Part shown: one piece after another, positions 47,153 to 60,933 of the stretch | How the letters are laid out: every line of letters begins with the position of its first letter | Position numbering within the stretch: position 1 is the stretch's first letter | The notes under the pieces: generated by a model | The model's database searches: none | What the model was told of the DNA's origin: nothing | The model's input: the letters and a program-made list of their open reading frames with translations, nothing else | Program-made: the position numbers and the translations under genes | Assembly (NCBI GenBank): GCA_018653085.1 | Contig: JABIAY010000053.1 | Coordinates: 190,561-254,560 of the forward strand | DNA: 64,000 bases | DNA from: Nitrospina sp. | Lineage (GTDB): Bacteria; Nitrospinota; Nitrospinia; Nitrospinales; VA-1 | Direction of reading: 5' to 3'

Positions 47153-48739
47153 TTAATTAGCGGGACTCGTTTTTTGCAAATGAATGCGTTTTAAATATAA
47201 AAGTTCCATAGCGTTGACCTTTAATCCCTGAACATGAGGCTTGACCAAAAGGTTCTGGGCGGCAACAAAAAGGGGAATCATCGGGACTTCCTTTTCGGTG
47301 AGCAGGATTTGAGCTTCATCATAGACCGCTTTTCGTTCTTCCGGATTTTTCAGCGTAGACCCCAGGGCAACCAATTCATCGTAGCGCGGATGAGACCATC
47401 TCAGCCGGTTATTGCCACTGGTCTTAATGAACAGGTTCATGAAGTTATCGGGGTCCGGGAAGTCGGCCCCCCATCCCAGCTTAAAAATCTGTGGCGGGTC
47501 CAGATCCAACCGGCTAAGCAAAACCTTCCATTCCTGACTTTCTAAATCAATATGTACATTCAGGTGCTTTTTCCATTGTCCCTGTAGGAATTCCCCGATG
47601 AGCTGGTTGGTGTACCTTGTGTTGAAGACGGCGGTAACTTTTGGGAACCCTTTCCCATCCGGGTAGCCCGCTTTAGCTAAGAGGGACCGGGCTTTTTCCG
47701 GATCAAATTTTGATCCAATGTTTTCATCGTAACCGAACATGCCTTTGGGAATCCATGATGAGGAGGGCAGTTCTCCCCCCTTCATGATTCCGGGAATGCG
47801 GGACCGGTCAATCGCATGGGCAAATGCCTGCCGGACCCGTACATCCTTAAAGGGAGGCTTTTGTACATTAAAACCGTAATAACTTCCCCGTAGCTGAGGT
47901 TGGTTCCTATACTCGGGGCTGGATTTATAATGGGGAATAGCGACAGAGGGCAGTTCGATATAGTCCAGCTCTCCGGTTTCGTAAAGCGTTAACGAAGTGG
48001 TGGGCTCCTGCACCACAAACATTCGAACAGTATCTACCGATGGTTTGCCTTCGTAGTGGCGAGGGTTGGCTTTCAGTACCAGTTTGTATTCGTGTTGCCA
48101 CTCTTTCAGTGTGTAGGGACCGTTGGTGACAATATTTTCAGGCTCTGTCCATGAGTTACCATGTTGATGGATAATATCTTCCCGGGCGGGGTAGGTGACC
48201 ATGAAAGTGGTGATACTGGGAAAATAGACCACGGGTTTTTTTAATCGGACCTGTAGAACATCCGGGGCCAATGCCTTTACCCCAACCTGGTCGGGGTCGG
48301 TTATTTCTCCTGAATTATATTGGCTGGCATTTTCAATGTCGAAGAGGAAGTACGCGTATTGGGCGGCTGTCTCAGGGGCCAGTAACCGTTTCCAGGAATA
48401 CTCAAAGTCTCCCGCTGTGACCGGTTTCCCATCGGTCCAATAAACATCGTTGCGCAGGAAAAAAGTGATGGTTTTGCCGTCTTCAGAATATTTCCATTTT
48501 TTTGCGATGGCGGGCTGAGGGTTTAATTCGGCATCGTATTGGGTGAGTCCTTCCATGAGGTTGGTGAGAATGGTGAAAGAAACACTGTCGGTAGCCAGAG
48601 TCCAGTCCAGGGTAGGGGGCTCATTTTTTATGGACATCCGGAAAACAGAATGGTCTGTTGAGGCAGTCGGACTGCAACCGATAAGGAGCAACAATGCAAC
48701 GGCCAAGCAAAAAGAAAAAACGGCGGTTTGCAATTTCAT
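47153..48739 (-). CDS. peptide ABC transporter substrate-binding lipoprotein (OppA/DppA family)
   Basis: 528 residues from ATG 48739, chosen so that the protein begins KLQTAVFSFCLAVALLLLIGC, a signal peptide with lipobox Cys22; a longer open frame upstream would overlap the next gene and bury the signal. The SBP_bac_5 fold is clear: NEPPTLDWTLATDSVSFTILTNLMEGLTQYD, AKKWKYSEDGKTITFFLRNDVYWTDGKPVTAGDFEYSWKR and a C-terminal EAQILLTEKEVPMIPLFV. It binds oligopeptides in the periplasm. No permease or ATPase genes are adjacent, so it may serve a distant transporter. It lies 43 bp behind the ligase gene. Confidence 0.88.
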   Translation of the reverse strand: MKLQTAVFSFCLAVALLLLIGCSPTASTDHSVFRMSIKNEPPTLDWTLATDSVSFTILTNLMEGLTQYDAELNPQPAIAKKWKYSEDGKTITFFLRNDVYWTDGKPVTAGDFEYSWKRLLAPETAAQYAYFLFDIENASQYNSGEITDPDQVGVKALAPDVLQVRLKKPVVYFPSITTFMVTYPAREDIIHQHGNSWTEPENIVTNGPYTLKEWQHEYKLVLKANPRHYEGKPSVDTVRMFVVQEPTTSLTLYETGELDYIELPSVAIPHYKSSPEYRNQPQLRGSYYGFNVQKPPFKDVRVRQAFAHAIDRSRIPGIMKGGELPSSSWIPKGMFGYDENIGSKFDPEKARSLLAKAGYPDGKGFPKVTAVFNTRYTNQLIGEFLQGQWKKHLNVHIDLESQEWKVLLSRLDLDPPQIFKLGWGADFPDPDNFMNLFIKTSGNNRLRWSHPRYDELVALGSTLKNPEERKAVYDEAQILLTEKEVPMIPLFVAAQNLLVKPHVQGLKVNAMELLYLKRIHLQKTSPAN

Positions 48740-48782
48740 GAGAATGCCGTGGCGTTTACAGATTTTTGTATAGAGATTGTTT

Positions 48783-51203
48783 TTATTGCGAAACTTTTTT
48801 ATGTGTCTGGGCCAGGGAAATACCCATAATGAAATAAAGCAACATGACAACCTCTGAGTCGTAGAAATTTGTCTCAAACAATCCCCCTGCCAGAAAACCC
48901 ATCACCGCCGCTACGGAACCCATGATCAAGGCTCTGGAATTATCATTGACGAGTTGTTGCGACCATTTTTTATACATAGTCAGGAGATAGGCTACCCAGA
49001 TTGAGAGCCAGGCCCCCAATCCCAGGATTCCCATGTCGACCAGCAATTGAAATATATTACTGTGCAACCCTCGGTATCGTGCAACATATCCTGAAGGATC
49101 TGGATATTGAGAATGAACCAAATCTACGCATTTAAAACCACAACCTGTAATGGGGTAGTCCTTAAAAATTTCCCAGCCTCCTTGCCAGAGATAGAGTCTG
49201 GCCTGCAGGGTCCAGTCTTTTAAATCTATCAGTGAGAACAAACGGTCTTTGACGCTTTCTGGAGAAAATAGTAGAAGCCCTACCATTATTGCAGGGATGG
49301 CTAGAAGGTATTTTTTGTTCCAGAAAATAGTCAATACTACTATTCCAACGAGAAAACCCAACCAGGCCTGTCGGGTTAAAGTCAGCAATAAACAAAACGC
49401 AATAAGCCCCACGGCACCGACCACCCAAACCTCTTTAGCTTTGTTAAAAAGGACTCTGCCGAGGGCAAAGAGTCCGACCAGCATCAGTAATCCCGCAAAG
49501 GTCATATAAACACTCATTGTCCCGGAGACCCTGGTTTCCAGGCCCACTGCAGTGGTCCATGCCTGAGAGAAACCAAACAGGGAGGCCACGACTCCTGCGG
49601 CGATCAGGAGTTTTATAAGCAAGTCCTTCTGTCTTTCATCTTCCACGGTATTTGCAACCCAGAAGAACACTGCAAACTGAAGAATTTTTTTGAGAGGCTT
49701 GAGACTGGTGGCAAAGTCTACAGATGTGATAACCGCTAAAACACTGGCAAGGCAAAAACATAAAATAGGCAGACCTATAGCTGTGCCACGGATTTCTTTC
49801 CAGGATTTTGTCAGGTGGACCTTGAGTAACCAGGCAACCGTCCCAATGGAAAACGCAATCTGGGTGACGCTGATGGAAAACATGGAGAACGCGACAAACA
49901 TAAACAGAGAAAACTGAATCGCTTTATCCAGCCACAGAATACGATTTGTGTTTAAAAAACGCCCCAGGTCGAAGGGCGTCTCTGTGAACCTGTCTGCTTT
50001 TTTTATTTTGGCCAGAGAGAGTCCCATGACGAAATAAAGCAACATGACTATCTCTGAGTCGTAGAAATTTGTCTCGAAAAAACCTCCAACTAAAAAGCCA
50101 ACAACCACTGCCGAGGATCCCATCAGTATGCCCTTGGCACTATCTGAAGACGCTTCCTCAGCTAAAGCCTTCCAACGTTTAAAGATTTCCATGAAAAATG
50201 CCACCCAAATGGAAACCCATAGTCCCAGCCCTACAATTCCTGTGTCGATCAGTAGTTGAATTATATTACTGTGCATTCCCCGGAAAAACCCTACCCACCC
50301 TGAGGGATCCGGGTATTGGGTATGGATTGCATCCACACATTTAAAGCCACAACCTGTAATGGGGTAGTCCTTGAAAATTTCCCATCCCCCTTTCCAAAGG
50401 GACACCCTTGACTGGAAGGAATTTTCCTCTATATTTCCAAAGCTATGGATACGGTTTTTAACAGAGTCGGGAGCAAAAAATAAAAGACCTGTTAGCAACA
50501 ATGGCAGGAGCAAAAGATATTTTTTATTCCAGAAAAACAACAGAAATGCAGTTCCTACAAAAAAACCAAGCCAGGCTTGTCTCGTCAATGTCGCCAGCAG
50601 GCATAGGCCCATAATGCCTAAACTCCCCAGCACCCAATATTCTTTGGGTTTATGAAATAGACACCAACCCAAGGCCACCAAACTTGTAAGCATTAAAACC
50701 CCTGCAAAAGTCGCGCGATTGCTTCTTGTTCCAAGGATCCTGTGATTTTCAAGGAAATCCGCCTCCCAATAAGGGGAGAGCCCATACAATGCCGCAAGAA
50801 CTCCGGCAACAATTATCGTTCCAATTAATAAATCCCTTTGCTTTTCATCCGTGACCGTATTGACCGCCCAAAAGAACACGATAAATTGGAGCAGTTTTTT
50901 CAGGTGTGTAAAGCTGCTTTCAAAATCAACCGATGTCCCCACCGCCAAAAAACAGGCCAGGCAGAAGCACAGGATTGCAATGCCAACCCGTGTGCCCCGC
51001 ACTTCTTTCCAGCTTTGGGTCAGGTGAACTTTCCACAGCCAGGATATAGAGCCTATGGAAAATGCGATCTGGGTGACGCTGATGGAAAACATGGAGAAGG
51101 CAACGAACGTGAACAAAGAAAACTGAATCAGTTTGTCCAAGGCTGGAATTGCCGGGTGCGTTATGGATGAATTAGTTTCAGGCAAGAATTTCTCCGTTTG
51201 CAT
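48783..51203 (-). CDS. tandemly duplicated O-antigen ligase (Wzy_C) fusion
   Basis: 806 residues made of two homologous 403-residue halves. Both contain the segments FVAFSMFSISVTQIAFSIG, LTRQAWLGF, GGWEIFKDYPITGCGFKCVD, HSN(I)QLL(I/V)D.GI.GLG and ETNFYDSE.VMLLYF.MG. Each half alone looks like a complete O-antigen ligase/polymerase-type protein with about ten TM helices and the Wzy_C loop. Such enzymes transfer undecaprenyl-linked polysaccharide to lipid A core or polymerise it on the periplasmic face. DNA matches between the halves have a constant 1209-bp offset. A frame-preserving tandem duplication fused the copies without a stop between them. Neighbouring gmd, colD and wzx genes fit O-antigen assembly. 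Confidence 0.85.
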   Translation of the reverse strand: MQTEKFLPETNSSITHPAIPALDKLIQFSLFTFVAFSMFSISVTQIAFSIGSISWLWKVHLTQSWKEVRGTRVGIAILCFCLACFLAVGTSVDFESSFTHLKKLLQFIVFFWAVNTVTDEKQRDLLIGTIIVAGVLAALYGLSPYWEADFLENHRILGTRSNRATFAGVLMLTSLVALGWCLFHKPKEYWVLGSLGIMGLCLLATLTRQAWLGFFVGTAFLLFFWNKKYLLLLPLLLTGLLFFAPDSVKNRIHSFGNIEENSFQSRVSLWKGGWEIFKDYPITGCGFKCVDAIHTQYPDPSGWVGFFRGMHSNIIQLLIDTGIVGLGLWVSIWVAFFMEIFKRWKALAEEASSDSAKGILMGSSAVVVGFLVGGFFETNFYDSEIVMLLYFVMGLSLAKIKKADRFTETPFDLGRFLNTNRILWLDKAIQFSLFMFVAFSMFSISVTQIAFSIGTVAWLLKVHLTKSWKEIRGTAIGLPILCFCLASVLAVITSVDFATSLKPLKKILQFAVFFWVANTVEDERQKDLLIKLLIAAGVVASLFGFSQAWTTAVGLETRVSGTMSVYMTFAGLLMLVGLFALGRVLFNKAKEVWVVGAVGLIAFCLLLTLTRQAWLGFLVGIVVLTIFWNKKYLLAIPAIMVGLLLFSPESVKDRLFSLIDLKDWTLQARLYLWQGGWEIFKDYPITGCGFKCVDLVHSQYPDPSGYVARYRGLHSNIFQLLVDMGILGLGAWLSIWVAYLLTMYKKWSQQLVNDNSRALIMGSVAAVMGFLAGGLFETNFYDSEVVMLLYFIMGISLAQTHKKVSQ

Positions 51204-51427
51204 AAAATGAGGGTTCTACGGCCATTGTAGATTTGCCAACTGTTTTAAAAGAGGTCTTCACGCTACCGGCAAGGGTCTTTTCTTCAATCCGTTGATATTA
51301 TGAACTAAAATCAGCTTTGATCCCAAAAATATTTTTTCTGTAATATCAACCCATATCAGAATCAGAATTCGAGGACCATGGGTCACCTGATAGAGTTATT
51401 TGCCCAGGTAACTTGAATTGTTTTCCA

Positions 51428-51447
51428 TGCAGTGGTCTTGCACTGCA
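51428..51447 (-). terminator. hairpin behind DUF2939 gene
   Basis: TGCAGTG-gtcttg-CACTGCA starts 2 nt past the stop codon on the minus strand. There is no strong U-run, so termination would be weak. The rest of the gap to 51203 shows no gene. Confidence 0.4.
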
Positions 51448-51449
51448 GG

Positions 51450-52016
51450 TCATGTTAATGGGAAATTCAGGAGCACTACTTTCCAATCAAACCCCTGCCG
51501 TTCCCATATGATAGTAAAAGGTTTTCCTTTTACATTAAAGCTTGCTTGGAAATGAGAAAAATCTGTGAAGAAAATATAATCAATCTGTTCCCAGAGGCTG
51601 GGGATATTGGGGCCTTCAAGTTTTAGTGGTTTTTCTTTTATATCGGGGCTTAATTGTTTTGGTTCAGTAGCTTTCTCAAATGTTTTTCTGATTTGGTCGG
51701 CATACTTGTTTGGATTGTGGTAAAGATAAATTATTCCCTCTGGTGTAGCTATTTCATCTGCGATTTTCCGGGTTAGTGAGACGGCGCTAAAGCTTATCTG
51801 CAAATTTTGCTGTTTTAGATTTTTGTTTAAAATTTCTTTGACAAAATGGTTAAGGCTCTTCTCAATTCCTTTCTTGATGGGAGGCCAATGGATTTCCTCC
51901 ATCACTATTTTCTTGTTGGCAGATTCCAGGCCCACATATAACTTAATTAACGCTATATAAGGCCAAATTAGATAGGTCAATACAGGAATGCAAAGAGTGA
52001 TGGAAAGCTTTCGCAT
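51450..52016 (-). CDS. DUF2939 family protein
   Basis: 188 residues. An N-terminal TM/signal segment (about 5-24) is followed by YIALIKLYVGLESANKKIVMEEIHWPPIKKGIEKSLNHFV, the DUF2939 pattern (position where VDWPALR is usual). The rest is periplasmic or extracytoplasmic, ending FNVKGKPFTIIWERQGFDWKVVLLNFP, a typical beta-rich end. It is noticeably more A/T-rich than the core genes of this window. Function unknown. Confidence 0.7.
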   Translation of the reverse strand: MRKLSITLCIPVLTYLIWPYIALIKLYVGLESANKKIVMEEIHWPPIKKGIEKSLNHFVKEILNKNLKQQNLQISFSAVSLTRKIADEIATPEGIIYLYHNPNKYADQIRKTFEKATEPKQLSPDIKEKPLKLEGPNIPSLWEQIDYIFFTDFSHFQASFNVKGKPFTIIWERQGFDWKVVLLNFPLT

Positions 52017-52254
52017 ATTTTTAGTCCACGCGTTGAACCGATGGATCGACTCGGAACGGTTTTGAATATTTTGCGTAAAAACCTTTTGCTACCAAACAAT
52101 TGAGGTTAGCATGCTTTCTAACCCCCTGCCCAGTCATGACCCTTTTTTTGACGGGAAATGAGGGTTTAGTGTCTCGCAAAGTCTGAACCAGGCCTTGATC
52201 ACAAGCCCGATATAACCCGAAAACACGAAATTTCCCGGATAAATCATTTATTTC

Positions 52255-52282
52255 TTTACTTTTTCCCTCACCTTTATAGAAT
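52255..52282 (+). promoter_or_regulatory. possible promoter of LRR gene pair
   Basis: TTTACT (52255-52260), 16-bp spacer and TAGAAT (52277-52282), about 30 bp before the first LRR start. The remaining 240 bp of the divergent gap to 52016 contain nothing recognisable. Confidence 0.35.
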
Positions 52283-52312
52283 GGAGTTTTTTCTCAGTGT
52301 TGGGGTGTGAGT

Positions 52313-52978
52313 ATGGCAGAAGATATTTCTTATATCAGAAAATGGGTCAAGCGCGGCTTGAGCAAGGACAAGAAAACTCTGGACTTTTCCAACAGAGGTA
52401 TCGATAACCAGACGGCTATGGATCTGGCTGAAAACGTGGCGCTTCCCGATATTGAAATCCTGTACATTCATACCAATAAAATCAAAGATTTGGGTGTGGA
52501 GGAACTGGCGCAGTCGGAATTTTTCGAACCGCTTAAAGAGCTCTGGATATACGAAAACCTGATTGGGGATGAAGGAGCAAGGGCTCTGGCCGAATCGGAG
52601 CAATTGACCCAATTACGTTACCTCAGTTTATATACCAATAAAATCGGCGATGAAGGGGCCGTGGCTTTGGCAAACTCTAAAAACCTTTCCAGGCTTGAAA
52701 CCCTGGACCTCTCGTTTAACCGCATTGGCGATCGTGGAGCGGAGGCCCTGGCAAATTCCAGCCACCTTAAAAAATTGAAGGAATTGCATCTTGATGCCAA
52801 TCGAATTGGTCTCAGAGGAATGCAGGCTTTGGCCAAACTTTCCGGATTGCAAAACCTCCAAACCTTAAACTTGTCGTATAACCGAGTTGATCTTCAGGGA
52901 CTGGAGCTATTGAATAATTCAAAACGTTTACAGGAAATGGGCGCGGTGAAAACGGACTACCCCCATATTGGCGGTTGA
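52313..52978 (+). CDS. leucine-rich-repeat protein (RNase-inhibitor-like repeats)
   Basis: 221 residues from ATG 52313 (GTG 52307 also possible). At least six 24-27-residue repeats follow the pattern L..L..L.L..N.IGDEGA.ALA.S, such as RLETLDLSFNRIGDRGAEALANSSHL and KLKELHLDANRIGLRGMQALAKL. This is the RI-type LRR that makes a curved binding surface. No signal peptide or enzymatic domain, so probably cytoplasmic protein-protein binding. It is 3 bp ahead of a second LRR gene. Partner unknown. Confidence 0.83.
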   Translation: MAEDISYIRKWVKRGLSKDKKTLDFSNRGIDNQTAMDLAENVALPDIEILYIHTNKIKDLGVEELAQSEFFEPLKELWIYENLIGDEGARALAESEQLTQLRYLSLYTNKIGDEGAVALANSKNLSRLETLDLSFNRIGDRGAEALANSSHLKKLKELHLDANRIGLRGMQALAKLSGLQNLQTLNLSYNRVDLQGLELLNNSKRLQEMGAVKTDYPHIGG

Positions 52979-52981
52979 TTC

Positions 52982-54460
52982 ATGCGGCCTGAAAATAAAG
53001 ATTTAAATTTTATCCAGACCCTTAATAAAAAACTGACCCGCAAGGATCCGGTTTTGGATCTCGCCTATGATCGAATGGGAGATGCGGGAATCGTTTTTTT
53101 GTGCCGCAATAAAGACTTATCCCATGTTCAAAAACTGGATTTGAGCTGGAATGAGATCACTGATGAAGGCTTGGGTGTTCTTGCCGGGTCGGGTTCGCTG
53201 GCCGGGTTGAAACATCTTATTCTCAATGCTAACCAAATTGGGGATGAGGGAGCCAAAAGCCTGGCAGTTTCTAAAAATCTTCCAAACCTTGAATCGATAG
53301 AATTGGCCCATAATCAGGTCTCCGATTTTGGAGCCTTGAGCCTTGTAAAGTCTCAGTCCCTGCTGAACCTCGGGTTCGTGGACCTGGAGATGAATAAGGT
53401 GGGGCAACAGAAATTAACCCGGTTCCCAGATGGTGCGGTGGTTTCCAAGCTTCGCATCCTCAACCTTCGTCGCAATCTTTTGGCAGATGAAAATATTGCA
53501 GACTGGGCGCAGACGGGAGCTTTTGAAAAACTGGTTCACCTGAACCTGGGTTGGAATCAACTCACCAATCAAGGTGCCCGCATTCTTGCGCATTCTCCAA
53601 CTTTAAACCGGCTGGAAACTCTGGTTCTTGATTCCAATCACATTGGTGATCCGGGAGCCTTGGATATTGCGGGATCCAAGCATTTAAATAATCTTGTTCA
53701 ACTTTATATGCAGGATAACAATATAGGCCGGGCAGGGGAAACCGCTTTATTGGCCATGCGTTCCAGGAATTTGGTTGAGAAGAAAAGAGTCGATGATAAA
53801 CTCAACCTCAATGAACAGAGGTTGGGCAATAAAGACCTTGTCTCTTTGGCACAATATGAAAAACTCGATGGGATTGTTTCTCTTACACTGCGGAACAACC
53901 ATTTTGATTATCACGGGGTTCAGGAGCTTGCCAATTCCCCATACCTCAAAAACCTGAAGTCCCTGAACTTGATGAGTAATGCAGTGGGAGACAAAGGTCT
54001 TGTGTTACTGGCGGAATCCCCGAACCTGTCCCAATTGGAAAGTTTGAACCTGGAAAATACCGGAGTTACTGCACTGGGAATCCTGGCCCTTTCCCAGTCC
54101 CCGCATCTTAATAAACTCAAAGAGCTTAATTTGAACAGTAACGACCTGGGAGAAAAAGGTTTTCGTATTTTAGCGGATTCCGGGAATTTCAAAAACCTGA
54201 CTAAACTAAGAACCTCCGGGGTTTCTGTGGGAGATACCGAATTTCAGGCTATTGTCCAGTCTGATACTTTAAGCCAGCTTGAAGAGCTGGAGGCCATGGG
54301 TAATGTCATCACCCGGGAAAGTTTGGATTCTTTGGCCGATTCCGCAATATTGCCCCAGTTGAAAAAGCTGGACCTTCGCCGCAATAAACTAAAGGATGTG
54401 GACCTGATATTCCTGGCAGATTCTCCAAAGTTTCACAATTTAGAGGCTCTGAGGTTTTAA
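52982..54460 (+). CDS. long leucine-rich-repeat protein
   Basis: 492 residues with about 16 RI-type repeats (for example HVQKLDLSWNEITDEGLGVLAGSGSL, GLKHLILNANQIGDEGAKSLAVSKNL and KLKELNLNSNDLGEKGFRILADSGNF). The repeat units are of the same type as in the preceding protein, so the pair arose by duplication or splitting. There is no signal peptide, TM or catalytic domain. Spacing of 3 bp indicates one transcript. A nucleotide-sugar gene follows after 51 bp, but no functional link is evident. Confidence 0.83.
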   Translation: MRPENKDLNFIQTLNKKLTRKDPVLDLAYDRMGDAGIVFLCRNKDLSHVQKLDLSWNEITDEGLGVLAGSGSLAGLKHLILNANQIGDEGAKSLAVSKNLPNLESIELAHNQVSDFGALSLVKSQSLLNLGFVDLEMNKVGQQKLTRFPDGAVVSKLRILNLRRNLLADENIADWAQTGAFEKLVHLNLGWNQLTNQGARILAHSPTLNRLETLVLDSNHIGDPGALDIAGSKHLNNLVQLYMQDNNIGRAGETALLAMRSRNLVEKKRVDDKLNLNEQRLGNKDLVSLAQYEKLDGIVSLTLRNNHFDYHGVQELANSPYLKNLKSLNLMSNAVGDKGLVLLAESPNLSQLESLNLENTGVTALGILALSQSPHLNKLKELNLNSNDLGEKGFRILADSGNFKNLTKLRTSGVSVGDTEFQAIVQSDTLSQLEELEAMGNVITRESLDSLADSAILPQLKKLDLRRNKLKDVDLIFLADSPKFHNLEALRF

Positions 54461-54511: not shown

Positions 54512-55588
54512 TTGAAAAAAGCTTTGATTACAGGGATTACGGGACAGGATGGGTCTTATCTGGCTGAGTTCCTCATGGAAAAAGGATATGAGGTTCACGG
54601 TCTGGTGCGGCGTTCCAGTAGTTTTAACCGAGGCCGTATTGAACACCTCCTGTTAAACCCACAAAACCCGCTGGGGAAAATCCGTTTGCATTATGGGGAT
54701 ATGACCGATACCCCAAGCCTGAGTCGGTTGTTGTCGGAAGTCCACCCTGACGAAGTGTACAACCTTGCGGCACAAAGCCATGTGGGAATTAGTTTTAATA
54801 CGCCTGAGTATACTGGGCAGGCGGATGCCATGGGCCCTCTCCGAATTCTGGACTCTATCAAGTCTACGGATTTACTGGATACCTGTCGGTTTTACCAGGC
54901 TTCGACCAGCGAACTATACGGTAAGGTGAAGGAGGCCTCCCAAAACGAGACCACGCCCTTTCATCCCCGCAGTCCATATGCAGTGGCAAAACTTTATGCT
55001 CACTGGATCACTATCAATTACCGGGAATCCTTCGGGTTGTATGCCCTCAACGGAATCATGTTCAACCATGAATCGCCACGGCGAGGTGAAAATTTTGTCA
55101 CCCGAAAGATCACCTTGTCACTGGCAAATATCCTTGCAGGCGAGCAGGAAAAGCTGAGTTTGGGAAACCTCAACTCAAAGCGCGACTGGGGTCACGCCAA
55201 GGACTATGTCGAAGGAATGTGGCTGGCTTTGCAGCAGGAGGAAGCGGAAGATTATGTGTTCGCAACGGGGATTCAGAAAAGCATCCGCGATTTTGTAATA
55301 GACGCGTTTGGCAGTTGTGGTTTCGATATTGAATGGCAGGGTGAAGGTCTTGAGGAAAAGGGAATTGATCGAAAATCAGGACGGGTTTTGATCGAAGTGG
55401 ACCCAAAATTTTTCCGTCCGGCGGAAGTGGATGTGCTTACTGGCGATGCCAGTAAGGCTCGTGAAAAGTTGGGATGGGAACCCCGAATTTCTTATAAGGA
55501 GCTTGTGCGCATCATGGTGAAAAGTGATCTTCTCTACAAAGGTCTGGACCCTGCCGAATTAATGACCCCCCAGGATGCCCAAGCCTGA
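54512..55588 (+). CDS. gmd: GDP-mannose 4,6-dehydratase
   Basis: 358 residues from TTG 54512 behind AGAGGGG. Extended [21 protein letters not shown], the arginine-rich [25 protein letters not shown], the [12 protein letters not shown] active site with Tyr/Lys, [16 protein letters not shown] and [15 protein letters not shown]. It makes GDP-4-keto-6-deoxy-D-mannose, the precursor of fucose, rhamnose, perosamine and colitose. A second gmd paralogue is convergent next to it (gap 43 bp). Confidence 0.95.
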
Positions 55589-55631
55589 CTCCTCCCATAA
55601 ACCGCTCTTCGATTATATAGCCTGACCCTTC

Positions 55632-56639
55632 TCAAGGTCTGGGATATCTTCTTAAATCTGCCTCAACCATATCGGCCATTAAACTGTCCACATCATACTT
55701 GTGATTCCACCCAAGCTCTGTTTTTGCTTTGGTGGAATCACCAGCCAGCAGACCAACTTCTGCTGGTCTCAGGTTGGACTTGTCGGTGGTCACGATAAGT
55801 TTGTCGTTTCTTTTGTCAAAGCATTCATCGTTTTTCCAATACCCGGGTATTGATAGGTACGCCAATGTCTTGTCAATAAACTGCCTAACGGTATGGACTT
55901 TTCCTGTTGCCAATACGTATTCTTGTGGTTGGTCCGCATTTAACATTAACTGCATTCCTTCAACAAAATCTTCGGCATGTCCCCAGTCCCTTTTGGCCTC
56001 TAAATTACCTAATACAATAGGCTGGCCTTCTCTCAACCATAACGCAATGCCTTTTGAAATTTTTCTGGTTACAAAGTTTTCCCCCCTCATCGGAGATTCA
56101 TGATTGAACAGAATGCCGCAACAGGCAAACATATCATATGCTTCTCGATAATTGATAGTGATCCAGTGAGCGTATAATTTTGCAACGGCATAGGGAGAAC
56201 ATGGGTGGAAGCTGGTTTGTTCTGATTGAGGTGCTTCTTGTGTCTTGCCGTATAGTTCGCTGCTAGAGGCCTGGTAAAATTTGATCCGTGGATTAACCTG
56301 CCTGATGCTTTCCAGTACTTTTAATGTGCCAAAGCCATCAACCAGCGTGGCAAGTTCGGGTTGCTCGAATGATAATGCGACAAATGATTGGGCCGCCAGG
56401 TTATAGACTTCATCCGGTTTTGTTTTTTCTATAGCTCTTCTGATATTTGCCTGGTCTACAACATCCAGCTCTACGTATTCAATGTCCCCTGTGATGCCCA
56501 TCTCATCCAGACGCCAATGTTTTGAGGATGTGCTCCTGCGTTGACCCCCGTAAACTTTATACCCTTTCTCCAGTAGCGATTTCGCCAGATAGCAACCATC
56601 CTGGCCGGTAATGCCTGTAACCAATGCTGTTTTGCTCAT
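55632..56639 (-). CDS. gmd: second GDP-mannose 4,6-dehydratase
   Basis: 335 residues. Same fold and motifs as the neighbour ([76 protein letters not shown]), but clearly a separate branch. It lies 7 bp behind colD on the same strand, so this copy probably feeds the 3-dehydratase, while the plus-strand copy could feed another sugar. Activity could extend to related 6-deoxy-keto sugars. Confidence 0.92.
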   Translation of the reverse strand: MSKTALVTGITGQDGCYLAKSLLEKGYKVYGGQRRSTSSKHWRLDEMGITGDIEYVELDVVDQANIRRAIEKTKPDEVYNLAAQSFVALSFEQPELATLVDGFGTLKVLESIRQVNPRIKFYQASSSELYGKTQEAPQSEQTSFHPCSPYAVAKLYAHWITINYREAYDMFACCGILFNHESPMRGENFVTRKISKGIALWLREGQPIVLGNLEAKRDWGHAEDFVEGMQLMLNADQPQEYVLATGKVHTVRQFIDKTLAYLSIPGYWKNDECFDKRNDKLIVTTDKSNLRPAEVGLLAGDSTKAKTELGWNHKYDVDSLMADMVEADLRRYPRP

Positions 56640-56646
56640 ACTGCTT

Positions 56647-57816
56647 TCAACTCCTCAGGCGGTCATGCGTATTTTTTATAATTCCATACACAAGGTCGAT
56701 GTTCTCTTTCAAATCTCGAACATCATTGCCAACAAATAAACCATTTTCATGTATGTAATCGGCGTTCTTGTAATCACCATTGCTTAAAAAACTCAAATAC
56801 TCAATTACAGGGTTTTTCATGAAATTACCCGCAACAATAGGTCTGCATTCTACACCCTTTGACTCTAAATCTTTCACAACAACGTCTCTGTGGCCTGCCA
56901 GCTTGTCTTCTAATACGATTGAGAAACCGAACCAGCTGGAACTGCCAATTTCTTTCTGTGTGGTTACGGGAAGGTCTTTGAATTTTTCTTTAAAGTATTC
57001 GGCGTTTTTGACTCTTTTTTTCCTCATCTCCGGCCACTTTTCAAGTTGTACGCTACCAATTGCACCACTCATCTCCAGAGGCCTTACGCTATAACCTGGA
57101 GCTATGAATGTGAAACTATCTTTGAATTTATCTCCGCTCTTTTTATAAATTTTATTGTCATCGGGTAAATCTCTGCACCATCCGTGGGCTCTCATGGATC
57201 TGATAAAATCAGCATCATCATTGTTTTTGCATGCAATCATGCCGCCTTCCATTGTTTGCAAGTGATGTGAAAAGAAAAATGAATAGCTGCCGAGCTGACC
57301 CACTGTGCCTGCATGCTCTTGTGTGTCGGTTATCGAACCTAAGCTCTCGCAATTATCCTCAATCAACATCAGACCTCTTCTCTTTGCGATTTCTTTTAGT
57401 TTCTTATATTCACAACAATTGCCTAAAAGGTTTACGGCGAATATCGCGCATGTCTCTGGGTTGATTGCCGCCTCTACTTTTTCTGGATCAATATTTAATG
57501 TGTGCTTGTCGATGTCGACAAAGTTTATTGTGAAATTATATTGGTGCAGTGGGAAATAAGTTGTGGACCAGGAAACGGCAGGCGCAATAATATTTCCGCG
57601 CAGCTTATACTTTTCTGCCAGGGTGGCGAGCATTAAAAGGTTCGCTGTTGAACCGCTATTAACCATCACGGCGTCTTTGCACATGAAGTGACGGGCAAAC
57701 TCTTTTTCAAATTGTTTGACATGCGGTCCCATTGTGTATCGACCGCTCTTGATGACTTTTTGGATTGCCTCGATTTCCCTGTCGTCCCATGTGTCACACG
57801 CTAATGGGTATTTCAT
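56647..57816 (-). CDS. colD: GDP-4-keto-6-deoxy-D-mannose 3-dehydratase (ColD-like)
   Basis: 389 residues from ATG 57816, with TGAGGAGAG directly upstream. DegT/DnrJ/EryC1-type PLP fold, but the Schiff-base Lys is replaced by His: SFFFSHHLQTMEGG (His184-His185), as in ColD, which has SHHIATMEGG at the same place. Other shared stretches with E. coli ColD are YPLA..TWDD, SGSTANLLM, APAVSWSTTYFPL, NLLGN, EDNCES, RAHGW.R.LP and PGY.VRPLEMSGAIG. It removes the C3 hydroxyl of GDP-4-keto-6-deoxymannose on the way to GDP-colitose or another 3,6-dideoxy sugar. The epimerase/reductase ColC is not in this window. Together with gmd it forms one unit. Confidence 0.88.
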   Translation of the reverse strand: MKYPLACDTWDDREIEAIQKVIKSGRYTMGPHVKQFEKEFARHFMCKDAVMVNSGSTANLLMLATLAEKYKLRGNIIAPAVSWSTTYFPLHQYNFTINFVDIDKHTLNIDPEKVEAAINPETCAIFAVNLLGNCCEYKKLKEIAKRRGLMLIEDNCESLGSITDTQEHAGTVGQLGSYSFFFSHHLQTMEGGMIACKNNDDADFIRSMRAHGWCRDLPDDNKIYKKSGDKFKDSFTFIAPGYSVRPLEMSGAIGSVQLEKWPEMRKKRVKNAEYFKEKFKDLPVTTQKEIGSSSWFGFSIVLEDKLAGHRDVVVKDLESKGVECRPIVAGNFMKNPVIEYLSFLSNGDYKNADYIHENGLFVGNDVRDLKENIDLVYGIIKNTHDRLRS

Positions 57817-58121
57817 CGCTCTCCTCACATGTTCGTATATCGCCGAGTTAGTATATTTTTGGTCTCATCCTGGCTGTTCCTCGACAAGTTGTACCACTTT
57901 TTAGGTTAAAACTTCCATGAGAGATGTATAATGTGCCTCGTCTGCACAGTCCCCTGGGTGATTTGCCACCCGTTTTCCCGGAATAATCTGTAGATGAAGC
58001 CAATATGAAAAACCGGGAAGGCTCAAAAAACGGGAGTGCTAATTTATAAAGCGGCACCTTAATTGAAACAGGTTGGTCAATATTGGAGTTTTATCTTGTT
58101 TGGGGGGTGTGATCAAGGTCT
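57817..58121. other. divergent promoter region of polysaccharide genes
   Basis: 305 bp with no gene. TATAAT lies at 57927-57932 on the plus strand with only a weak -35, implying a leader of about 190 nt before the glycosyltransferase. No JUMPStart/ops element was recognised. Confidence 0.35.
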
Positions 58122-59261
58122 ATGCGTATAGCAATTATTCACGAATGGCTTGTGACCTATGCGGGTTCCGAGAGAGTGCTTGAGCAGATGCTTGCTGTTT
58201 ATCCTGATGCCGACTTATTCTGCGTTATTGACTTCCTGGACGATCAAAGCCGCGACTTTATTTTAGGAAAAAAACCAACCACCACCTTTATTCAGCATTT
58301 GCCAAAGGCGCGTTCAAAATATCGATCCTACCTTCCATTAATGCCGTTGGCTATCGAGCAACTCGACCTATCTGGTTATGATTTGGTAATCTCCAGCAGT
58401 CATGCAGTGGCAAAGGGTGTGCTCACAGGACCAGACCAGTTGCATGTCAGTTGTATTTACTCGCCGATACGATACGCCTGGGATTTGCAGAATCAGTATC
58501 TCAAAGAGGCTGGTCTTGACAGGGGGATAAAGGGTTGGTTGGCCAAGTGGATTCTGCATAAGATTCGTCTTTGGGATGCGCGCACGGCCAATGGCGTAGA
58601 TTCTTTTATTGCGATTTCTCATTTTATTGCCAGACGTATTAAAAAATCTTATCGACGCGAATCAACGGTCATCTACCCGCCTGTTGATATTCATGCATTT
58701 ACGCAAGTAGATAATAAAGAGTCTTTTTATCTTGCGGCCTCACGCATGGTGCCTTACAAGCGCATAGATTTGATTGTAGAGGCTTTTAGCAAGATGCCGG
58801 ATCGTCGCCTTGTGGTAATTGGTGATGGTCCAGAATTTAATAAGGTGAAAGCCAAGGCGGGGAAAAACATAGAGATACTTGGATATCAGGAGTTTGGAGT
58901 GTTGAAAGATCATATGCAACGCGCTCGGGCGTTTGTCTATGCCGCAGAAGAAGACTTTGGCATCATTCCATTAGAGGCGCAGGCCTGCGGTACTCCTGTC
59001 ATTGCATATGGAAAGGGAGCACTTTTAGAGACAATACGTGATCTGGCTAGCCATGAAGAACCCACTGGTGTGTTTTTCAAATCTCAAACGGTTGAAAGCA
59101 TAAAAGAGACCGTCGAATATTTTGAGAAGAACATGGAAGGTATCACCCCAGAAGCCTGTCGCAAGAATGCAGAACGTTTCGCTCCGGAAGTATTTCGGGA
59201 AAATTTTTCTCGGTTCGTAGAGAACGAATACGAACGATTTCATAAAGCAATGAACATATAG
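58122..59261 (+). CDS. GT-B (family 4) glycosyltransferase
   Basis: 379 residues. The N-terminal half reads IIHEWLVTYAGSERVLEQML and SGYDLVISSSHAVAKGVL. The C-terminal GT4 donor site shows LAASRMVPYKRIDLIVEAFSKMPDRRLVVIGDGPE and FVYAAEEDFGIIPLEAQACGTPVIAYGKGALLETI, with the E-x7-E-like pair. Acts in the cytoplasm adding a sugar (often mannose-type) to a lipid-linked polysaccharide; exact donor unknown. The location beside gmd, colD and wzx supports O-antigen synthesis. It ends 223 bp before wzx; that gap holds no gene. Confidence 0.9.
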   Translation: MRIAIIHEWLVTYAGSERVLEQMLAVYPDADLFCVIDFLDDQSRDFILGKKPTTTFIQHLPKARSKYRSYLPLMPLAIEQLDLSGYDLVISSSHAVAKGVLTGPDQLHVSCIYSPIRYAWDLQNQYLKEAGLDRGIKGWLAKWILHKIRLWDARTANGVDSFIAISHFIARRIKKSYRRESTVIYPPVDIHAFTQVDNKESFYLAASRMVPYKRIDLIVEAFSKMPDRRLVVIGDGPEFNKVKAKAGKNIEILGYQEFGVLKDHMQRARAFVYAAEEDFGIIPLEAQACGTPVIAYGKGALLETIRDLASHEEPTGVFFKSQTVESIKETVEYFEKNMEGITPEACRKNAERFAPEVFRENFSRFVENEYERFHKAMNI

Positions 59262-59484
59262 TGTTGATGCTGAGGGCTCTGCGTTGCCCTAATTTTAATA
59301 GTCCCTGTATAGATTTGGTAAACCGGTAGCCCGGCGAATCACAAAAGTTTCCAAAGTAAGGCAATATTAATACCTGCCCCTTGTTGCCCCTTGCGCAGGG
59401 AACCCCTCTGTTGAAAAACCAGGCCAAGGTTGTTTTAGCGAGGTGTGTTGATCTCCCTGAAACCCACAGGGAAAGTATATAGCG

Positions 59485-60933
59485 ATGACCCTAGAAAAAA
59501 ATAAAACAGCTACGCGATTAGTAAAAAATTCAGCTTGGTTGTTTAGTGCTGAAGTTTTTTCAAAGCTTGTTGCGTTGGGAATTCAGATAATAGCCGCAAG
59601 GTATTTGGGTAGTAAAGGGTATGGCATATTTTCCTTCTCATTCGTGGCCGCGGCAATCATTTTGGACTTTGTCGATTATGGGTTGCGAACTTACCTGACA
59701 CGGGAGTTATCAAGAAGGCCTGACGATACTAAAAGTCTGTTGGTCAATATTTTTGCTGTTAAATGGTGTCTGACGCTAATAACGGTGTTTGTTCTTTTCG
59801 GGATTTATAGTTGGCTTCCCCTGGACCGAGAGACTTTGTGTGTGATGGCTATAATGGCAGCGGCAATGATTCTGAATGGGTATTCTGAAATTTATCTCGG
59901 GGTTTTTCGGGCCTTTGAGAGGATGAAGCTGGTTGCTTCATTGATGGTAATTCAGCGGGCTGTGTTTTTTGTTATTGGTTTTCTGGTATTGGTTTTGGGT
60001 GGTGGGATTATTGAATTTTCAGCAATATTTCTGCTGGCGTCAATTTTAAACTTTTTATTGGCGCGAAACTTTCTGAAAGATCAAAGGGGAGAATTTTTCG
60101 CAAATATCGATAGGTCCCTGGCTAAAACAATTTTCAATGAATCGAAATACTTGTGCCTGGCTATTCTATTTGTCTGGTTATATTTTCGAATTGATTCGGT
60201 CCTGATCTTTCTTTTCCTTGGGAAAGAAGAAACCGGTTTGTATGTTGCCGCTTTTAAGCTCATCGAGTCTCTGGCACTCATATTGGCCAGTATCAGGGGG
60301 GCGCTGTTTCCTGCATTGTCCCGGGCCTTTTTGGGGGACCCTAAAGAACTCCACCAAATCTGGGAAAGAGCAGTTCGTTTTTTGTTTTTAATAGCTATTC
60401 CGATTTCGGTGATTGCAGTAACGCTGGCTCCTCAACTTATAGCAATTATTTTTGGGGCTGATTTTGTAGCGTCAGCTCTGGTTCTTCAAATATTGGCGGC
60501 ACCATTCTTATTTCTGGTTCTCAATGAGTTTATAACTTATCTGCTATTGGCGGTTAATAAAACCAGGAGTGTTATAAAAATAGCGATTGTCGGAGCGATA
60601 TTTAGTGTCGTTGCAAATATTCTAATAATACCTCGCATGGGAATAACGGGGGCCGCGATAGTCGCAGGGTTGACGGAATTCCTACTGCTTTTTTTGTTTT
60701 TCCGCTCTATCAGGAGTGTCTGTGGCTCCACGCCGGTTTTTTCTCTGATATGGAAGCCGGCGTTATCAGCCACAGGAATGGCTTATTTTTTAACCGAAGT
60801 GTCATGGCCCCTTTTCCCTTTAATTTTTGCAGGCGCGGGAGTTTATTTTGCGTTGTTACTCCTGCTTCGGGCGTTCAACGAGCATGATTTTCAAGTGATG
60901 AGAAATATCTTAAACCGAGAAGGAAGGGTGTGA
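59485..60933 (+). CDS. wzx: Wzx-type polysaccharide flippase
   Basis: 482 residues with 12-14 predicted TM helices and the MATE/MVF-type fold of polysaccharide exporters. The N-terminus reads LVKNSAWLFSAEVFSKLVALGIQIIAARYLGSKGYGIFSF and a central charged loop GTG/EETGLYVAAFKLIESLALI follows. It flips undecaprenyl-linked O-units to the periplasm, where the duplicated ligase could act. The gene stands alone after the glycosyltransferase. Assignment to Wzx rather than another MOP exporter is by context. Confidence 0.85.
   Translation: MTLEKNKTATRLVKNSAWLFSAEVFSKLVALGIQIIAARYLGSKGYGIFSFSFVAAAIILDFVDYGLRTYLTRELSRRPDDTKSLLVNIFAVKWCLTLITVFVLFGIYSWLPLDRETLCVMAIMAAAMILNGYSEIYLGVFRAFERMKLVASLMVIQRAVFFVIGFLVLVLGGGIIEFSAIFLLASILNFLLARNFLKDQRGEFFANIDRSLAKTIFNESKYLCLAILFVWLYFRIDSVLIFLFLGKEETGLYVAAFKLIESLALILASIRGALFPALSRAFLGDPKELHQIWERAVRFLFLIAIPISVIAVTLAPQLIAIIFGADFVASALVLQILAAPFLFLVLNEFITYLLLAVNKTRSVIKIAIVGAIFSVVANILIIPRMGITGAAIVAGLTEFLLLFLFFRSIRSVCGSTPVFSLIWKPALSATGMAYFLTEVSWPLFPLIFAGAGVYFALLLLLRAFNEHDFQVMRNILNREGRV

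Follow-up and report, generated by a model that had tools for sequence, protein, structure and literature searches.

The double ligase gene and its locus

The locus lies in Nitrospina sp. (assembly GCA_018653085.1, contig JABIAY010000053.1), and the whole stretch of DNA analyzed here, referred to as the window, spans 64,000 nucleotides corresponding to forward-strand positions 190,561 to 254,560 of that contig. The genome of the window is labeled G000, whereas other G numbers designate the genomes of relatives and L numbers their loci. Its central feature is a double-length ligase gene on the minus strand, inserted between an OppA-like lipoprotein gene and a leucine-rich-repeat (LRR) protein gene:

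47153 to 48739, minus strand: OppA-like solute-binding lipoprotein (PF00496), the downstream flank of the conserved slot
48783 to 51203, minus strand: double-length WaaL/Wzy_C-type ligase frame, 806 amino acids counted from the ATG and about 800 from the likely TTG
51183 to 51195, minus strand: GGAG Shine-Dalgarno-like sequence (51195-51192) and TTG codon (51185-51183), the likely true start
49995 to 51203, minus strand: N-terminal ligase module ("N-type", residues 1-403; PF04932, 76.5 bits), in trees kin of rml-locus single-copy ligases elsewhere
49932 to 50009, minus strand: inter-module linker, approximately residues 399-424, with positive charge at its beginning and predicted to be cytoplasmic from AlphaFold helices and the positive-inside rule
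48786 to 49994, minus strand: C-terminal ligase module ("C-type", residues 404-806; PF04932, 81.5 bits), whose AlphaFold model matches WaaL 7TPG
52307 to 52978, plus strand: LRR protein, the upstream flank of the conserved slot
54512 to 60933, unstranded region: nearby surface-polysaccharide genes (two GDP-mannose dehydratase-like, a DegT aminotransferase, a GT4 glycosyltransferase and a Wzx-type flippase)

A preliminary description of this DNA had proposed that two complete ligase-like halves reside in one open reading frame, and this is borne out both by the frame itself, which in the ORF reading of the window runs over 806 residues without an internal stop, and by the separate matches of each half to the Pfam Wzy_C family, at the scores given above and against a gathering cut-off of 31.7 bits. 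The two halves share 62% identity and 79% positives over 381 aligned residues (E = 1e-179) and are about 71% identical in DNA. The two further Wzy_C proteins of the same genome are single-module proteins of about 580 residues and could be polymerases.

The likelier start is the TTG rather than the first ATG, as judged from sequence comparison: the ATG at 51203 is missing in G009 and in G015 directly precedes an in-frame TAA, and the GGAG-preceded TTG, six codons past the first ATG, is kept in G000, G009 and G007. In the window gene the linker lacks any in-frame ATG, GTG or TTG, which makes it unlikely that the C half is translated on its own. The reading frame is continuous between the halves, with no stop, and the absence of both a stop and a linker start codon speaks against a frameshift or independent C-half translation for the window gene.

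The interval between the OppA-like and LRR genes (48739-52307) behaves as an insertion slot in the genus. It carries the double ligase in three species, a single ligase in G007, and no ligase in G005, G010, G013, G001, G002, G003, G014 and G011; two of these eight ligase-free cases hold only a gene for a 188-residue DUF2939-like protein. On its upstream side, two adjoining LRR-repeat proteins (52307-54460) keep their synteny across the genus. Beyond them, the two GDP-mannose dehydratase-like genes (54512-55588 and 55632-56639) face each other beside the DegT aminotransferase gene, in a layout that resembles GDP-amino/deoxy-sugar pathways; the dehydratase-like pair is missing between the second LRR gene and the DHH gene in most of the relatives examined.

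Conservation of the double frame among relatives

The double-length form recurs in three of 46 family-level genomes, namely that of the window, G009 and G015. In G009 the same double frame aligns over 802 residues at 73% identity, and in G015 the junction between the modules is intact, with a 95-N scaffold gap in the N half that covers its histidine stretch; in both species the gene is flanked by the same OppA-like and LRR genes as in the window. In searches that were not exhaustive, no double form was found outside the genus among 100 relatives, none of the best matches listed from 291 genomes revealed a double Wzy_C frame elsewhere, and the literature yielded no papers on fused or duplicated O-antigen ligases.

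The G009 and G015 genes, which answer the preliminary description's call for double-length homologues, also bear on its concern that the gene could be an assembly artefact, whether through collapse or duplication of a repeat or through erroneous joining of two genes. We consider such an artefact extremely improbable. The assembly is indeed a draft of 78 contigs, but the window gene is located far from the ends of its 259-kb contig, the double frame recurs at the same syntenic site in separate assemblies of two further species with ortholog-level divergence, and mismatches between the halves affect 38% of aligned residues and roughly 29% of bases, the former excluding one copy assembled twice. 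The double ligase is thus a conserved, genuine gene that adds a new architecture to an established enzyme family, each of its modules being mechanistically ordinary.

The preliminary description had reported an offset of 1209 bp at both ends; this value stands for the central block (48969-49210 / 50178-50419, 71% identity) but not for the 3' block (48798-48944 / 49998-50144, 73% identity), where the spacing is 1200 bp because the C half lacks three residues. The two sites at which the offset had been measured coincide with two short patches that, in the window's genome, are at least as similar between the halves as between orthologues and in this respect are unlike the frame as a whole. One covers the first transmembrane region and contains a 32-bp exact match, and the other corresponds to the DYPITGCGFKCVD motif; they extend over approximately 51070-51120 / 49861-49911 and 50350-50410 / 49141-49200. 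The longest exact match between halves is 32 bp in G000, 15 bp in G009 and 21 bp in G015. Such a pattern in the sequence suggests limited intragenic gene conversion between the halves.

Fold, active-site residues and selective constraint

A search of the PDB with the family profile retrieved WaaL of Cupriavidus metallidurans (7TPG, E = 7e-8), and a direct phmmer comparison of the whole protein with the PDB gave no match. The AlphaFold model of the C half (pLDDT 81, pTM 0.84) has the same WaaL structure as its sole significant Foldseek match in the PDB (TM 0.72, E = 3.1e-7), and by its 62% identity to the C half the N half would share the WaaL fold. The full-length model (pLDDT 64, pTM 0.45) is too weak for reading how the halves pack against each other. 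The modeling suggests 12 membrane spans per module, and in the C-half model the Lys/Arg-rich loops lie on the side of the termini, with the catalytic loops opposite; both ends of a module should therefore be cytoplasmic, which would permit head-to-tail fusion through a short linker.

In WaaL the catalytic residue is a histidine and the arginines act as pyrophosphate ligands (PMC10449877, PMC12800693). Their counterparts in the two halves map to the following codons:

50580 to 50582, minus strand: R208 (TRQAW), aligned to Arg191 of the 7TPG chain
50406 to 50408, minus strand: R266, aligned to Arg265 of the 7TPG chain
50271 to 50273, minus strand: H311 (HSN motif), aligned to the conserved histidine (HND) of the 7TPG chain
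49371 to 49373, minus strand: R611, the R208 equivalent in the C half
49197 to 49199, minus strand: R669, the R266 equivalent in the C half
49062 to 49064, minus strand: H714, the H311 equivalent in the C half

Two putative active sites, one per half, as the preliminary description had envisaged, are therefore intact in sequence, with the Arg/Arg/His set aligned to 7TPG in each. The conserved periplasmic arginine pair and catalytic histidine expected of a WaaL member are thus found by alignment in both halves, and each module, at about 400 residues, matches the size of the C. metallidurans enzyme (PDB 7TPG/7TPJ); in contrast to the one module of WaaL, however, the chain holds two diverged modules, and sequence identity over the structural alignment is low (16%).

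Both modules are well preserved. Relative to 49 residues that are invariant in 26 single-copy relatives, the three C halves keep 49, 49 and 48 and the three N halves 48, 47 and 43, the last count belonging to the G015 half, in which three further positions fall inside the scaffold gap; at near-invariant positions, too, the N halves show slightly more changes than the C halves. Between species, NG86 estimates of dN/dS, which are approximate at a dS near 1, amount to about 0.22 for the N half (0.211/0.949) and 0.14-0.18 for the C half. On these substitution patterns purifying selection acts on both halves and neither is decaying, and the somewhat faster evolution of the N half would fit a relaxed or changed function.

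These differences bear on whether only one module, most likely the C-type, works as a ligase, while the other serves a structural or regulatory role, for example as half of a pseudo-dimer or as a docking module for Wzz or Wzy. The stronger constraint on the C half (0.14 versus about 0.22 in the same species pair) and the few extra changes of the N halves at near-invariant positions speak for this arrangement, but the two complete N halves keep the catalytic Arg/Arg/His set and nearly all invariant residues, and the N-type module by itself is the sole close relative found in other species, where it is presumably active on its own. We accordingly regard a single working module as possible, though not very probable.

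The assignment as an O-antigen ligase made in the preliminary description holds at the family level, but no dedicated equivalog model reaches its cut-off. NF012031 (RfaL) does not match the halves of the window gene and scores 39 bits, against a cut-off of 277, with the relative G013; this model may not be broad enough to cover the phylum. The nearest NCBIfam models are instead the IctB-like TIGR00947 and the PEP O-glycosylation ligase model TIGR03097 (PEP_O_lig), and since the WaaL, IctB and PEP-ligase equivalog models all fall below cut-off, the donor and acceptor proposed for the protein are putative. This ranking, together with the breadth of the Wzy_C superfamily, could be read as indicating another of its enzymes, such as a Wzy polymerase, a PEP/exosortase-type O-ligase, a protein O-oligosaccharyltransferase or an IctB-like protein. 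The similarity to IctB, itself a single module, is full-length but weak, with scores of 58.9 and 73.5 bits for the two halves far under the cut-off of 366.4, and the PEP_O_lig score is 65.9 bits against 188.1. The protein O-oligosaccharyltransferases PglS and PglL share the superfamily and the GT-C mechanism, and in PglS a catalytic His324, arginines and Glu379 have been modeled on WaaL (PMC12800693); however, PglS uses protein as its acceptor and ends in a periplasmic domain at its C terminus, and neither of the roughly 400-residue halves has such a domain. As the top structural match is WaaL and the single-copy relatives adjoin RmlD/RmlC dTDP-sugar genes, a different superfamily activity seems unlikely.

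Origin of the two modules and a proposed role

The single-copy Wzy_C ligases of Nitrospina relatives (e.g., L031 of G013, Nitrospina sp. LS_NOB, which belongs to the same genus as the window's genome, and L043 of G007) are 61-69% identical to the nearer half but consist of one module each, and those of the N-type are located in the rml cluster, as in G013, G014 and G001, where the gene sits between rmlD and a DnaJ-MORN gene. The ligase tree separates the N halves of the three species, as one clade, from a second clade made up of their C halves, and the N clade groups with the single-copy ligases of G013, G011, G014 and G001 at 100/100 support, so that the N half stands nearer to ligases that other species carry as single copies than to the C half of the same chain. 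The preliminary description's "two copies" thus stands insofar as there are two complete modules, but these are not straightforward duplicates: trees that unite all N and C halves from the trio in one clade are rejected (AU p = 0.00037), which eliminates a tandem duplication confined to the double-gene species and indicates that the halves split before those species diverged; a sister pairing of the two halves of the window gene is likewise rejected (p = 3e-30).

An in-place tandem duplication in the double-gene ancestor, with N and C as sister paralogues, could still draw on the shared slot and head-to-tail order, on the single copy that G007 carries in the slot, and on the short high-similarity patches between the halves. 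Against the two rejected topologies and the grouping of the N halves with rml-locus singles, we consider it improbable. A duplication that dates back to the root of the genus and was followed by loss of the C-type in other species is a possible alternative. In the species tree, built from six markers of which three or more lie near the locus, the trio groups with G007, G005 and G012, and a grouping of the G007 single copy with the C halves is not rejected (p = 0.19); this ambiguous placement leaves the order of events uncertain. Diagnostic sites had hinted that the G007 gene is a head/body chimera derived from collapse of a double gene, but split trees gave no support to this candidate (head, p = 0.08 against G007 with C; body, p = 0.41).

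The rml site also varies among genomes. The rmlD/DnaJ-MORN junction of the window's genome (L125/L126, contig C50, approximately 40-49 kb) is interrupted by other genes, which span about 9 kb and include no close ligase; the corresponding junction of G008 likewise holds no ligase. G011 has two differing N-type ligase 5' ends (L050 on contig C56 and L040 on contig C45), one of them cut by a contig edge, which likely reflect a strain mixture or a second gene copy.

These trees place the halves in two diverged ligase lineages, and the most likely and simplest history is a joining of an rml-lineage N-type ligase to the C-type gene of the slot. An N-type ligase from the rml (dTDP-sugar) cluster would have been placed in frame and upstream of a C-type ligase residing between the OppA-like and LRR genes.

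We therefore favor, with some reserve, a two-module WaaL-type glycan ligase of GT-C fold and Wzy_C family, in which N-type and C-type modules form a tethered pair with two active sites. Two 12-helix modules with cytoplasmic termini would be joined by a cytoplasmic linker of about 25 residues that leaves their topology unchanged; on the periplasmic face, the arginines of each module would bind an undecaprenyl-pyrophosphate-linked glycan, and the histidine of each would transfer the glycan onto lipid A-core. Glycan ligation to lipid A-core by the tethered pair is the most likely role in view of the family, the fold, the active-site residues and the nearby polysaccharide genes. Each chain probably has two active sites, and we infer that both modules may be active or may differ in their substrates. 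A more specific form of the tethered-pair reading, to which we give only a low probability, is a two-headed ligase whose modules use different donors (rml/dTDP-sugar versus GDP-sugar), so that one chain would attach two types of glycan to lipid A-core, or an obligate pseudo-heterodimer, with the tether setting the ratio.

The WaaL of known structure consists of one module, and a requirement for a partner in vivo is difficult to probe for ligases of this kind. The double ligase, a naturally occurring fusion of diverged modules that is under selection, offers a direct tool for this question, in that its halves can be inactivated separately within one protein. More broadly, the double ligase shows surface-glycan ligases moving between loci in marine nitrite oxidizers.
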